Below are positions 8,600 through 23,434 of a DNA stretch of 23,434 bases, piece by piece. The notes beneath the pieces were generated by a model. It worked only from the letters and a program-made list of their open reading frames with translations. It did no database searches and was not told the origin of the DNA. Location: IMG/VR virus record IMGVR_UViG_3300044675_000112, positions 1 to 23,434 of that record, one strand, 5' to 3'. Position numbers and translations under genes: made by a program. Each line of letters starts with the position of its first letter. The first letter of the stretch is position 1. Source of the DNA: a virus.

Positions 8600-9097
8600 T
8601 TATTCCGGTTGTGTTGGCCATGTGATAGTCCAAGGAAAACCTTCTTGGCCAGTGACATCACGCAAGGCTTGGCGGTATGTAGCCCATGCAGCTTTGTCCA
8701 CAGGGGCATCAGCCACCTGAGTCCAATCGCTGTCCTTGAGCTTCTCGCTACGGCTTGTGCGTACAGACTTAGCCTGTTCAGCATCTTTGGCGGCCCTGTA
8801 AGCAGCCTCATTCTCAGCAGCAGTGGTTGTCACGCCATCAACTGTTGTGTCTGTAAAGACAGGACCAAGGATGTGCTTGGTGTACCACTTGCCATCGATC
8901 TGCTCAACACCGTCAGCTTGAGAGTATTGATACACCGTACCGCCTGTGGCTTGTGGGCCTTCAAAGACGACATCAGCACCCAAAGCCTCTAGGACTTCAG
9001 GAGTTGTTGTATCCCATGATGGGCCACCGTTGGCTTTGATGTGTGTACGGAACTCTACCTCGTACATTACTCGACCGTCATTTGTTCGAATTTGCAT
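8600..9097 (-). CDS. Tail-fibre assembly chaperone-like protein (165 aa)
   Basis: The C-terminal half (from about residue 105) reads SRSEKLKDSDWTQVADAP, then VDKAAWATYRQALRDVTGQ and a final FPWTITWPTQP. The pattern 'R-x-x-x-L-x-x-(S/T)DW-x-x-x-x-D...W-x-x-YRQ-x-LR-D-(V/I)...FP-x-x-x-x-WP' is the hallmark of the phage tail assembly chaperone family (Phage_tail_APC type). Such proteins are encoded directly after the fibre they help fold. Here the 644-aa modular fibre is immediately upstream, 16 nt away, which fits. The N-terminal ~100 residues are less conserved and contain VDGKWYTK-like strands; they may bind the fibre tip. The start ATG follows AAGGAG at six nucleotides, one of the strongest ribosome sites in the window. 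Confidence 0.85.
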   Translation of the reverse strand: MQIRTNDGRVMYEVEFRTHIKANGGPSWDTTTPEVLEALGADVVFEGPQATGGTVYQYSQADGVEQIDGKWYTKHILGPVFTDTTVDGVTTTAAENEAAYRAAKDAEQAKSVRTSRSEKLKDSDWTQVADAPVDKAAWATYRQALRDVTGQEGFPWTITWPTQPE

Positions 9098-20259: not shown

Positions 20260-21672
20260 TTATGCAACCCTTGACAGGTTTCGGCGCAGCGGCTGGCCCC
20301 ACTTGCTGCTGCCTGCCGACCCGTACATCCCGGCAATTGCGTCACTTGCAAACGTCAAGACAAACGCATCGGCCTTGTCAGGGCTGGGCAAACCCCTCTT
20401 CCTGATCTCGTCCTTGCCCTCAATCTGAATCTTGCCGTTGCTGGTAAACGTGTAGCGCACCGTGGCCAACTCACTGATCAGCACATCGTCTTTGGCCAGC
20501 TTGCAGTCTCTCGCCTCCAGCCACGCCTTGGCCCTGTACCAAAGTTCAGCCTTGAGGTTTCTATAAGTCCCGCCCATGGCTGGGCTTTCACTCACATTAA
20601 TCCCCCTGGCTGGCAGGCCAAGCTCTCGCAGCCTGTCCACCACCCCAGCCCCAAGGCCGATGCTGTCCACCAAAATCTCCTTGGGCTGCTGGCTTGGCGG
20701 CAGCACGTTGTACTCGGCCACCACCGCCCCCGTCAGTTGCATCAGGTCCAGATTCTTCCATGTCCGAATGCTCTCGGTCACCACGTTGCCCTGCCGTTTG
20801 CACAAGGCACTTCGGTCACTGCCGAACCGCGCCACATCCAGACCCCACACCATTGGCGCTGATTGGCTGGCCGCCACATCCCGGTGCAGCGCACTTTCCA
20901 GCAAATCCATCGCAATCACCGTATCGTCATCGCCCTTCGGAAACTCCCCGATCACGCGAATCCGATACACGTTGCTGTCCTCGCCGTACCTCTGCGCCAT
21001 CTCCTTCACATACTCGTCACTGACCCGTGGCGAGTCAGTACACGCCACCTGAAACGTGGTCCACTCCCCCGCCAGGCGCGTGTGCGTGTCGTAGAAAAAC
21101 CCGCTGGACCGCACCGGGTTGCCCAGCAGCAGCGTCACAGCGTTGTGGCCAGACATCGACCCAGCCGCCGCCTCAAACACCTGTTCGGGCACGCCTGACG
21201 CCTCATCGGCCACCAGCATCACATACTCAGAGTGAATGCCCTGCAAAGCCTCCGGCTGCTCGGCCCGGCTCGTCCTGGCTGAGATAAACATCTCAGTCGG
21301 CGCAGCGTTGAACTCAATCCTCTCTTGCTTAACCGTCAGCAGCCCCTGCAAAGGCAGCGGCATCGCATTGATCCACCGCTTCAGTTCCGCAAACATCGCG
21401 TCATAAAGCTGGCTGCTGGTCGGCGCAGTCACCACCACCTTGACCGGGCTGCGCGTCATGAAGTACCACAGCATGGCCCAGCTACTCGCCGTAGATTTGC
21501 CCACCCCGTGGCCGGACCTGACGCTAATCTTCCTGTCCCCTCGGGCAATCGCCTGGAGAAACTTCACCTGCCACGGGTCAGGGTCTACCCCCAGCACCTC
21601 CCGCACAAACAGCACCGGATCAGGGTGATACCGTGCCACCCACTGCTGGAATACATTTTCTGTTTTTGCCAT
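20260..21672 (-). CDS. terL: Terminase large subunit (packaging ATPase and nuclease) (470 aa)
   Basis: TerL pumps DNA through the portal and cuts the concatemer. The ATPase domain shows Walker A as SGHGVGKST (residues 53-61), an adenine-side VVVTAPTSSQ, Walker B VMLVADEA with Asp156 and catalytic Glu157, and the coupling motif LLLGNP (181-186). The RNase H-like nuclease has acidic residues in WGLDVARFG (Asp279), EILVDSIGLG (Asp336) and SPDKADAF (Asp432, Asp435). The N-terminal FVREVLGVDPDPWQ is family-typical. All catalytic positions are intact. A TTG at 21681 overlaps the upstream stop as TTGA and is an alternative start. ATG at 21672 is preferred on codon use, but neither has a ribosome site. 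Four small genes and the DnaA-box region separate it from the small subunit. Confidence 0.94.
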   Translation of the reverse strand: MAKTENVFQQWVARYHPDPVLFVREVLGVDPDPWQVKFLQAIARGDRKISVRSGHGVGKSTASSWAMLWYFMTRSPVKVVVTAPTSSQLYDAMFAELKRWINAMPLPLQGLLTVKQERIEFNAAPTEMFISARTSRAEQPEALQGIHSEYVMLVADEASGVPEQVFEAAAGSMSGHNAVTLLLGNPVRSSGFFYDTHTRLAGEWTTFQVACTDSPRVSDEYVKEMAQRYGEDSNVYRIRVIGEFPKGDDDTVIAMDLLESALHRDVAASQSAPMVWGLDVARFGSDRSALCKRQGNVVTESIRTWKNLDLMQLTGAVVAEYNVLPPSQQPKEILVDSIGLGAGVVDRLRELGLPARGINVSESPAMGGTYRNLKAELWYRAKAWLEARDCKLAKDDVLISELATVRYTFTSNGKIQIEGKDEIRKRGLPSPDKADAFVLTFASDAIAGMYGSAGSSKWGQPLRRNLSRVA

Positions 21673-21677
21673 AGGCG

Positions 21678-22250
21678 TCAATTATGACGCAGCATCTCAG
21701 CCCTGCAATCGTTCCAGCCTTGGATGTACTCGGGATGCTCACCCTCTCGCGTTCCAAACGCATCAGGCACGGCTGGCTGTGCTGCGGGTGGGGTGGTGAG
21801 TGGCCTGATCTCTGCATGTAAGCCTTTGAGGTGCGCCATGTTGTCTGCCTCCTCTCTAGTAAAAAACATGTCGTGTAGGTTGCCGCCCTCAAAAACGCCC
21901 CACGCCACAGGCTGCACAGGTGCTGGTTGTGCGGGTGGGGTAGCTTTCATCACGCTGTCTTGCCCAGAGCAATACGCAATTCGCAAGGCTTGCAGGAATC
22001 CGATTTCCTCCGGGTCGCCGTGCTGCTTGGCATTCCATTGCTCAAACGACTCAGGCTCCTGCACAGGTGCTGGCTGTGCTGCATGGTATTGCTCCCACAG
22101 GGATGGCTTTACAGGCTGCACAGGTGCTGCAAGGGCTTGCTTGATGGCGGCAATTGGCTCCGTTGCTTTTTGGCGAATGAAGCGACCTGTTTCTAAATTG
22201 GAAATCCATTCCAACGCCTCCAGCGCCATGCGTAGTGCTTCGTCTTTCAT
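21678..22250 (-). CDS. Accessory protein with Pro-Ala-Pro-Val-Gln linkers (190 aa)
   Basis: I start at the ATG at 22250, which overlaps the stop of the 81-aa gene as ATGA and has a purine-rich GGGGGAA upstream. The N-terminus KDEALRMALEALEWIS, ending in AAIKQALAAP, is a module common at the start of accessory proteins of Gram-negative phages. Linkers with APVQ recur at about residues 42, 61 and 110, with AAQPAVP near 157. They separate an EQWNAKQHGDPEEIGFLQAL block (about 70-100), a VAWGVFEGGNLHDMFFTREE block (about 115-150) and a closing EYIQGWNDCRAEML. This looks like a chain of small shuffled domains, as in Ea22-like phage proteins. Function unknown. Confidence 0.72.
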   Translation of the reverse strand: MKDEALRMALEALEWISNLETGRFIRQKATEPIAAIKQALAAPVQPVKPSLWEQYHAAQPAPVQEPESFEQWNAKQHGDPEEIGFLQALRIAYCSGQDSVMKATPPAQPAPVQPVAWGVFEGGNLHDMFFTREEADNMAHLKGLHAEIRPLTTPPAAQPAVPDAFGTREGEHPEYIQGWNDCRAEMLRHN

Positions 22251-22492: not shown

Positions 22493-22629
22493 TTCTTCTC
22501 CCTCAAACAGCTACATGTAAACCCACTGCTGTCATAGCCAAGGCCGTAGCAGTTCGGACATTCCTGATCAGCCTCTGCGGATTTCTTGCGGCCAAACAGC
22601 CACTTCAAAAGGTCGTACAAAGGGGTCAT
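22489..22629 (-). CDS. 46-aa protein with a possible zinc knuckle
   Basis: A frame runs from ATG at 22629 to TGA at 22489-22491. The peptide begins MTPLYDLLKWLFGRKK, continues through a short acidic linker to ECPNCYGLGYDSSGFTCSC and ends in LREKK. The four Cys (C-x2-C-x10-C-x1-C) could bind one zinc, although the last pair is tighter than usual. A short amphipathic helix with Trp-Leu-Phe precedes them. Both ends overlap neighbouring genes as ATGA, which supports translation. No family is recognised. Confidence 0.68.
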   Translation of the reverse strand: MTPLYDLLKWLFGRKKSAEADQECPNCYGLGYDSSGFTCSCLREKK

Positions 22630-22790
22630 GCCCATCTCCCCGCTGCCTGCTCACGCAGCTTCTCTTGCGGCTGCGGCTGTCCCACCAGCCACCGCGCTCC
22701 AAGATGGCGAATGCTCTTGATCCACTGCCGTTGCAAATGACGGCTCTGTGGGTACAGGGTTCTCACCCTCGTCAGTAATGTCGTGTTCAT
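22626..22790 (-). CDS. 54-aa basic protein, first gene after the DnaA-box region
   Basis: A frame runs from ATG at 22790 to TGA at 22626-22628. The peptide begins MNTTLLTRVRTLYPQSRH, has a Trp/Arg-rich middle (QWIKSIRHLGARWL) and ends with a Gln/Arg-rich tail. It is strongly basic and may be helical. AGGAG lies seven bases before the ATG, the best ribosome site of this cluster, as expected for the first gene of a transcript. A possible promoter is just upstream. The stop overlaps the next start as ATGA. No family is recognised. Confidence 0.65.
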   Translation of the reverse strand: MNTTLLTRVRTLYPQSRHLQRQWIKSIRHLGARWLVGQPQPQEKLREQAAGRWA

Positions 22791-22819
22791 CGGTTTACTC
22801 CTGGTTAATAAGAATTGCA

Positions 22820-22848
22820 GTTTAAGGCAATTGGATGATGGTGGTCAA
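22820..22848 (-). promoter_or_regulatory. Possible sigma70-type promoter for the terL operon
   Basis: On the minus strand TTGACC (22848-22843) and TTAAAC (22825-22820) are separated by 17 bp. The -35 box matches five of six consensus bases; the -10 box is poor. A start about seven bases further on would give a ~20-nt leader containing AGGAG before the ATG at 22790. It lies just downstream of the A/T tract. Position supports it, sequence only partly. Confidence 0.35.
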
Positions 22849-22852
22849 GGTC

Positions 22853-22884
22853 TCATTTTTAACAAACTTAAAAAATTTTTTTCA
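22853..22884. other. A/T-rich tract with self-complementary A6T7 core
   Basis: About 30 bp are almost pure A/T, with AAAAAATTTTTTT at 22870-22882. It stands next to a GC-rich block and could act as an easily melted or intrinsically bent element. It does not form a normal terminator hairpin because it lacks a GC stem. It is about 100 bp from the DnaA boxes, farther than in the best-known bacterial origins. Confidence 0.5.
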
Positions 22885-22985
22885 GGGTTGTCAGGGATGT
22901 GGGTGGAGTACCGCAGCAGCCGCCCCCGCCTCGGCGGCCACCGGGGGGGGTCGCGGCCACGGTCCCAGGCTGGCGCGGCCTTGGC

Positions 22986-23074
22986 TTGTCCACAGGGTTT
23001 TGTCCACAGTTATCCACAAGAACCTGTGGATAACTTGCAAAGCAATGCTTGAGTATTCCTAAATCTGTGGATAA
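22986..23074. promoter_or_regulatory. Cluster of five DnaA-box-like 9-mers
   Basis: TTATCCACA, the canonical strong DnaA box, occurs three times without mismatch: at 23010-23018 on the plus strand, and at 23025-23033 and 23066-23074 on the minus strand. TTGTCCACA, one mismatch away, occurs at 22986-22994 and 23000-23008 on the plus strand. The first two perfect copies form an inverted pair with a 6-bp spacer. Five sites in 89 bp is far beyond chance. The natural reading is binding of host DnaA, since no initiator gene is in the window. Confidence 0.75.
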
Positions 23075-23116
23075 CTCAACATCGACTTTACATAATGAAC
23101 GTTGTAGGTAGTACTG

Positions 23117-23434
23117 TCAGGTATCGGTATGCATATCCACGCTGCGCTTGCGCAGTGCATCCAGTGCCATGCTGCCCAGGTCGATGTTGACCAAGGGCTG
23201 CTGCTTGTCGCCGTATTCCTCGTTCATCTTGCCGGCCAACCAGCGCCTGGTGTCCACCCTCAGCTTGGCCACCTGCGCCTCTTGCGGGGTCGCGCTGTCG
23301 GCAATCTCCAGCGTCTCCTCGGCTAAACTCTGACCACCCCGTGCGCGTGCACGCGCGAGAGCAGCAGCGCGTGCCTCACCTCCTCTGTCCACCCAATCGT
23401 AAAAAGCGGTGTGACTTATCCCCAGCGTCCTTGC
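23117..23434 (-). CDS. terS: Terminase small subunit (5' end cut by window edge)
   Basis: The frame is open from the right edge to TGA at 23117-23119, 105 residues visible. The first residues, ARTLGISHTAFYDWVDRGGE, are the second half of a helix-turn-helix as found at the N-terminus of small terminase subunits, which recognise the packaging site. An Arg/Ala helix and ETLEIADSATPQEAQVAKLR follow, then VDTRRWLAGKMNEEYGDKQ. The stretch 'A...A-x-x-x-x-LR-(V/I)-D-T-R-x-W-x-A-x-K-x-x-P/N-x-x-YGDK' is a strong signature of this family. A GTG at 23392 in the same frame is an internal codon, not the start, because the HTH residues lie upstream of it. The C-terminal tail is short, with a final VNIDLGSMALDALRKR. 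Confidence 0.88.
   Translation of the reverse strand, partial: ARTLGISHTAFYDWVDRGGEARAAALARARARGGQSLAEETLEIADSATPQEAQVAKLRVDTRRWLAGKMNEEYGDKQQPLVNIDLGSMALDALRKRSVDMHTDT

Follow-up and report, generated by a model that had tools for sequence, protein, structure and literature searches.

A freshwater phage locus with five DnaA boxes beside a dif-like site probably serves genome resolution and also binds host DnaA, rather than being a replication origin

A cluster of five DnaA boxes in a non-coding gap of a freshwater phage genome raises the question of whether the gap holds an origin of replication that depends on host DnaA, as was originally predicted, or serves some other purpose. The window, the whole stretch of DNA that was analysed, is a 23.4-kb virus record (23,434 nucleotides) whose nearest named relative, MW202879, has a circular genome of 36.5 kb and a terL product 74% identical to that of the window. 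Pfam searches of the window assign its portal and capsid to the SU10 type and its TerS to the Sf6 type. Comparison with relatives, which are metagenomic contigs and were compared at the sequence level, suggests that the locus is probably a genome-resolution site which also binds host DnaA, rather than a replication origin. The features on which the argument turns are collected in Table 1.

Table 1. Positions of the features discussed, in window coordinates
Feature	Position	Strand	Sequence or remark	Basis
DnaA box 5	22986..22994	+	TTGTCCACA	sequence and alignment
DnaA box 4	23000..23008	+	TTGTCCACA; degenerate in many relatives	sequence and alignment
DnaA box 3	23010..23018	+	TTATCCACA; inverted to box 2, 6-bp spacer	sequence and alignment
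DnaA box 2	23025..23033	-	TTATCCACA (TTATGCACA in many relatives)	sequence and alignment
DnaA box 1	23066..23074	-	TTATCCACA; 10 bp from XerD arm	sequence and alignment
dif-like XerC/XerD site	23085..23112	-	ACTACCTACAA-CGTTCA-TTATGTAAAGT, 11-6-11	dif weight matrix
XerD arm	23085..23095	-	part of the dif-like site	
Central hexamer	23096..23101	-	part of the dif-like site	
XerC arm	23102..23112	-	part of the dif-like site	
terS (terminase small subunit, 3' part)	23117..23434	-	Sf6-type	PF20901, E=2e-15
GC-rich block	22902..22962	-	CCGCGACCCCCCCC...GGCGGGGGCGGCTGCTGCGG; present also in array-less relatives	alignment
AT-rich block	22854..22882	-	A7T6-type; present also in array-less relatives	alignment
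Candidate promoter	22820..22848	-	TTGACC-17-TTAAAC, ahead of the small ORF leading to terL	by-eye consensus match
54-aa basic ORF	22626..22790	-	after the non-coding region	ORF translation
terL (terminase large subunit)	20260..21681	-	query for finding relatives	

The three copies of TTATCCACA and two of TTGTCCACA that the original prediction placed within 89 bp (22986-23074) are all present at their positions, and the inverted pair with a 6-bp spacer that it described corresponds to boxes 3 and 2. The cluster was also correctly located in the gap between terS (3' end at 23117) and the small ORFs before terL. The window contains six copies of the 9-mer TTRTCCACA where 0.68 would be expected, and none of 100 shuffles has as many; five of the copies lie in the cluster and one lies at 8694. 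The claim that the window contains no further perfect copy outside the cluster holds for TTATCCACA, and it is the copy of TTGTCCACA at 8694 that adds one more. Eighty relatives were gathered through TerS, from which 64 distinct array regions were aligned, and conservation, proposed at the outset as a check on the cluster, was indeed found: the boxes recur at fixed offsets in the relatives, which rules out chance. In mean column identity the XerD arm of the neighbouring dif-like site stands at 0.99 and boxes 1-3 at about 0.96, while the intervening positions have 0.70; the Xer arms and boxes 1, 2 and 3 hardly vary across some 64 relatives. A search that allowed 8-30 bp between the XerD arm and box 1 gave a gap of exactly 10 bp for 112 of 117 viral contigs. 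Across relatives box 1 reads TTATCCACA or ATATCCACA and box 2 reads TTATCCACA or TTATGCACA, the two forms of box 2 differing at the degenerate N of TTATNCACA. Given that box 2 varies at the degenerate position of the DnaA consensus, the cluster is very likely a DnaA-binding array; the boxes look like protein sites and, most simply, like DnaA sites.

Other readings of these repeats were considered and rejected. If the inverted pair formed a hairpin, as in an ABC-primosome, its arms would be expected to pair, and in 40 of the 63 rows boxes 2 and 3 set a G against a G, the change being left uncompensated. Terminase-binding repeats of the cosB type are contradicted by two relatives (L035 and L038) with TerS 82-83% identical and without the array. 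An IHF site between boxes 1 and 2 is found with at most one mismatch in 20 of 63 rows, against about 6.5% of shuffles, and is not general. No exact copy of TTGTCCACAGTTATCCACAAG turned up among the viral contigs searched, and phages and plasmids in the collections gave weak partial nucleotide matches to the array at most. In one contig, G018 (L202/L203), the box 2/box 3 pair occurs in opposite orientations near the contig ends (58-81 and 34606-34629), which reflects either an assembly fold-back or a genuine inversion. In another, L299, many tandem copies of TTATGTTAA surround the DnaA boxes near 2356-2403.

Directly after the stop codon of terS, 4 bp from it and 10 bases from box 1, lies an element that was overlooked in the first reading of the sequence, namely a dif-like XerC/XerD site. 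Sites of the dif type are used by bacteria to separate joined circular chromosomes. As in other sites of this class, 11-bp arms surround a centre within the 6-8-bp range and the whole matches the proteobacterial consensus. Scored with a weight matrix made from 32 published dif sites (PMC2731167), it reaches 22.9 bits, compared with 14.7-31.5 for the known dif sites and 1.9 for the runner-up place in the window. The best scores in shuffled windows ran from 1.4 to 17.5 bits and, as one of the ten reached 17.5, the matrix score alone is not decisive. The Xer site is also the top-scoring place in all 11 array-bearing circular genomes; it is non-coding, and its XerD arm is single-copy in each Xer-type circular genome, the apparent second copy in G002 and in G004 being the same position listed again. 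The typical site of the relatives reads ACTTTATACAA-CGACCA-TTATGTTAAGT on the coding strand. The XerD arm of the window, TTATGTAAAGT, is identical to the dif arm of Bordetella, and that of the relatives, TTATGTTAAGT, to the dif arm of Rhodoferax ferrireducens, identities that give a hint of a Burkholderiales host. The central region is private to the element, being CGTTCA in the window and other hexamers elsewhere, and is never TGTATA in the close or the wider family. With these features, it is highly probable that 23085-23112 is an Xer site. On its XerC side, the 3' end of terS holds a conserved sequence, GNATACCNA (coding strand), which is kept in or out of the terS reading frame, as seen in the first columns of the array-region alignment.

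In a minority of relatives the place of the Xer site is taken by a serine resolvase. Among the 80 relatives gathered through TerS, an Xer site without a resolvase is found in 72 and a serine resolvase in its place, without an Xer site, in the other eight; no relative combines the two or lacks both. The resolvases were counted by a short protein motif, which a Pfam match (PF00239) confirmed for L035, one of these eight, and for MW202879, which is more distant and is likewise of the resolvase type. In the terL tree the resolvase rows form one clade, and the exchange between Xer site and resolvase is consequently to be read as a single switch and not as many independent observations. A search for the two elements found neither array nor Xer site in MW202711, phiM5, MW202496 and C72C1.

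The Xer site also reaches further than the array. Scanning viral contigs for dif-like sites led to a wider family with terL 55-68% identical to that of the window. Its sites recur in the neighbourhood of terL and show over 20 distinct central hexamers, TGTATA not being one of them; at same-direction terL loci nearly all of them lie 113-195 bp before terL. No DnaA box is present within 250 bp at over half of these wider-family Xer sites, which indicates that not every site of this kind requires DnaA. Some lineages do have boxes around the site, arranged differently from those of the window: members of the CACCCA group carry 3-5 of them, either flanking the site or confined to its XerC side, and in a relative with 63% terL identity (L395) five boxes flank the Xer site, where no 50-bp stretch exceeds 54% AT. 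This pattern marks the Xer site as the shared core and the DnaA array as a lineage-specific, strongly conserved addition. Beyond the terL clade the boxes are denser near Xer sites (0.48 vs 0.023 per kb), a difference driven by few loci, among them L350, which is probably a clade member with its terL cut off. Two contigs of very large phages, L334 (155,508 bp) and L377 (154,976 bp), also have dif-like sites with private hexamers and several DnaA boxes alongside.

Detrended GC skew, computed for 15 complete circular genomes, reaches its minimum 1198-1787 bp upstream of the terS end, just behind a primase-helicase gene, at a place that holds iteron-like repeats; at the array itself, where the original prediction proposed to look for a skew inversion, there is none in any of these 15 circular relatives. 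The repeats differ by lineage (TAATCCGGTA, CGACCGGAC, GGTTGCAC and others, with GAGGATACC in resolvase types), and in many lineages the iteron locus has three TTATCCACA boxes. Iteron-like arrays were seen at 2900-3170 in L015, 2350-2640 in L018, 2900-3180 in L009 and 2920-3110 in L030. According to Pfam, the primase-helicase gene combines PriCT_2 with AAA_25 in some genomes and with a VapE-like domain in others. The GGTTGCAC array of L009 accompanies the VapE type and the CGACCGGAC array of L030 the AAA_25 type, and repeats and primase-helicase gene may move together. The iteron-like locus thus looks like a replication module that lineages can swap. It is most likely here, some 1.2-1.5 kb past the DnaA array and outside the window, that the true replication origin lies; for the window's own genome this place is extrapolated from the relatives.

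Given these positions, it is quite unlikely that the array is itself a host-DnaA-dependent origin, at which DnaA would bind the boxes and open the AT-rich block at 22854-22882. It is true that the five boxes and a 90% AT stretch occur in the same gap and are both conserved, and that no polymerase gene is among the early genes annotated in MW202879, so that host replication proteins would be used. Nevertheless, the skew minimum is 1.2-1.8 kb away in 15 of 15 genomes, and over 100 bp, including a GC-rich block, separate the AT block from the nearest box; the array-less resolvase types retain this AT block without boxes. Conversely, the boxes of the relatives with 63% terL identity, such as L395, have no AT-rich stretch alongside, and the resolvase-type phages replicate without any array. 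The original assignment of the cluster as an origin is thus not supported: the skew minimum lies elsewhere, and what the wider family shares is the Xer site, which many members carry with no DnaA box at all. A less direct part in replication, in which the boxes would assist in cis the iteron origin that lies 1.3 kb off, reached by looped DnaA, and would neighbour the Xer site only from sharing its gap, is doubtful. In every one of the 63 loci for which sequence could be read at the array and at the iterons, one or both of these carry DnaA boxes; those without iteron boxes have 2-5 at the array, and the array-less resolvase types always have three at the iterons. For this reason a helper role of the array is kept in consideration, although it leaves the fixed 10-bp gap to the XerD arm unexplained, the box counts follow lineages, such that the apparent compensation may be inheritance, and the boxes of the CACCCA group lie on both sides of the Xer site and not nearer the origin. 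In L395 the repeats behind the primase-helicase gene carry no DnaA box.

The remainder of the gap contains further elements. The GC-rich block has runs of C8 and G5 and is followed by the A7T6 block; judged against unwinding of the oriC type, the AT block is separated from the boxes by the GC-rich one. Both blocks are retained in resolvase-type relatives, which shows them to be separate from the DnaA array, and they could be a packaging (cos/pac) or a terminator element; contig ends inspected by eye do not cluster in the GC-rich block in the manner of a cos site. An inverted repeat, AATTGCCTTAAACTGCAATT (22814-22833, - strand), spans the possible -10 of the small-ORF promoter and is operator-like. 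A Pfam search with the 54-aa basic ORF (22626-22790) returned no match.

The candidate promoter is of relevance to a reading in which the array sets or senses host DnaA, be it as an element like DARS or datA acting on the nucleotide state of DnaA, as a titration trap or as a switch of the late operon. This candidate follows the array, and boxes 2-3-4 are like the core of E. coli DARS1 in orientation and flanks (AGTTATCCAC ... CTGTGGATAAC), box 2 being opposite to boxes 3 and 4. However, the spacing that DARS1 and DARS2 have in common (PMC5742627), seen in DARS1 as 5 and 3 bp, compares with 6 and 1 bp in the phage, and a DARS element was rejected on this difference in spacing. Moreover, box 4 is degenerate in many relatives, the candidate promoter is more than 130 bp from the nearest box, and five boxes are few for titration, which together make a DnaA-setting or DnaA-sensing role unlikely.

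The reading preferred here treats the non-coding locus between terS and the late operon as one unit, of which the boxes form one half and the 28-bp Xer site the other. The phage genome becomes circular in the cell and codes for recombination proteins, and can therefore give rise to dimers and multimers; among the products of these genomes are an exonuclease, an ssDNA-binding protein and a VRR-NUC nuclease and, given these and a circular form in the cell, multimers are to be expected. Host XerC and XerD would recombine two copies of the site on one molecule into monomers, as at plasmid cer and psi, and the private central hexamer (CGTTCA and not the TGTATA of dif) would restrict recombination to the site itself and away from the host chromosome. 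Host DnaA on the adjacent array would be an architectural or regulatory partner comparable to ArgR/PepA or ArcA/PepA, or would tie resolution to replication. From the sequence elements, their conservation and fixed spacing, the resolvase exchange and the position of the skew minimum, all of which are observed, we infer the binding of XerCD and DnaA, recombination and the accessory role of DnaA.

The Xer site could alternatively be an attachment site, used by XerCD to integrate the phage at host dif in the manner of CTXphi and other IMEX. Phage dif-like sites are known as attachment sites (PMC2731167, PMC5357621), and the early region of G015 showed no integrase. This is nevertheless very improbable: the usual TGTATA of dif is absent from about 72 close and 36 wider-family sites, the four terL relatives in 84,980 bacterial genomes include none shown to be integrated, and no repressor gene was seen in G015. 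Many private hexamers and no TGTATA are as expected of self-specific resolution sites and, given the Xer site, self-resolution rather than integration is likely. Given in turn both of these, a partnership with DnaA is a serious possibility that falls somewhat short of being probable. It is suggested more tentatively that host DnaA is the accessory protein of the Xer site, the array confining the resolution of phage multimers by XerCD to sites on a single molecule, or to a particular state of replication. Taken as a whole, a host-XerCD multimer-resolution site with DnaA as architectural or regulatory partner, the role of DnaA being partly open, is regarded as evenly balanced between acceptance and doubt. 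A search of the open-licence literature found no paper linking DnaA to an accessory function at Xer sites.

Many phages package from concatemers, and to our knowledge tailed phages are not usually thought to need host XerCD for genome separation. The family-wide presence of a dif-like site by the terminase gene, swapped for a resolvase in one clade, suggests that multimer resolution matters to these phages. It follows from the present locus that a dense cluster of DnaA boxes in a phage gap need not mean an origin. If the proposal is true, there would be a direct link of the replication initiator to site-specific resolution across a large family of freshwater phages, and a rigidly spaced DnaA array by an Xer site makes it testable whether DnaA regulates Xer recombination.

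Among known systems, the dif-like sites of phages that are used for integration as IMEX (PMC2731167, PMC5357621), such as those of CTXphi, VGJphi and TLCphi, are similar in being phage-borne and in that the present site, too, would use host XerCD; the locus described here differs in its private hexamers, in belonging to a circular tailed-phage genome and in showing no sign of integration. The dif sites of Burkholderiales have the same 28-bp 11-6-11 layout, with XerD arms (Rhodoferax and Bordetella) identical to those of the phages, but their centre is TGTATA where the phages have CGTTCA, CGACCA and others, and the phage XerC arm ends in ACAA instead of ATAA. The cores of E. coli DARS1 and DARS2, which share one spacing (PMC5742627), resemble the array in one box facing two opposite ones with very similar flanks; the phage spacing is 6/1 bp in place of 5/3 in DARS1, the third box is not conserved, and an Xer site is attached. 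Origins of iteron plasmids and of the P1 type resemble the iteron-like locus of the relatives, with its direct repeats, often three DnaA boxes and a primase-helicase gene beside it, but that locus is about 1.3 kb off, outside the window, and distinct from the reported cluster. Plasmids resolve multimers at cer and psi by means of XerCD together with ArgR or ArcA and with PepA, over about 200 bp of accessory sequence (PMC5357621, PMC11724359). The phage locus differs from these in residing in a tailed phage, in a 6-bp centre where that of cer has 8, in having DnaA boxes and not ArgR or ArcA sites and, as evidence counter to the proposed role, in that its array is on the XerD side whereas the accessory sequences of cer and psi are on the XerC side. 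In their overall plan, however, cer of ColE1 and psi of pSC101 are alike to the phage locus: an XerC arm, a private centre and an XerD arm, with sites for host proteins in the adjacent 100-200 bp or so.
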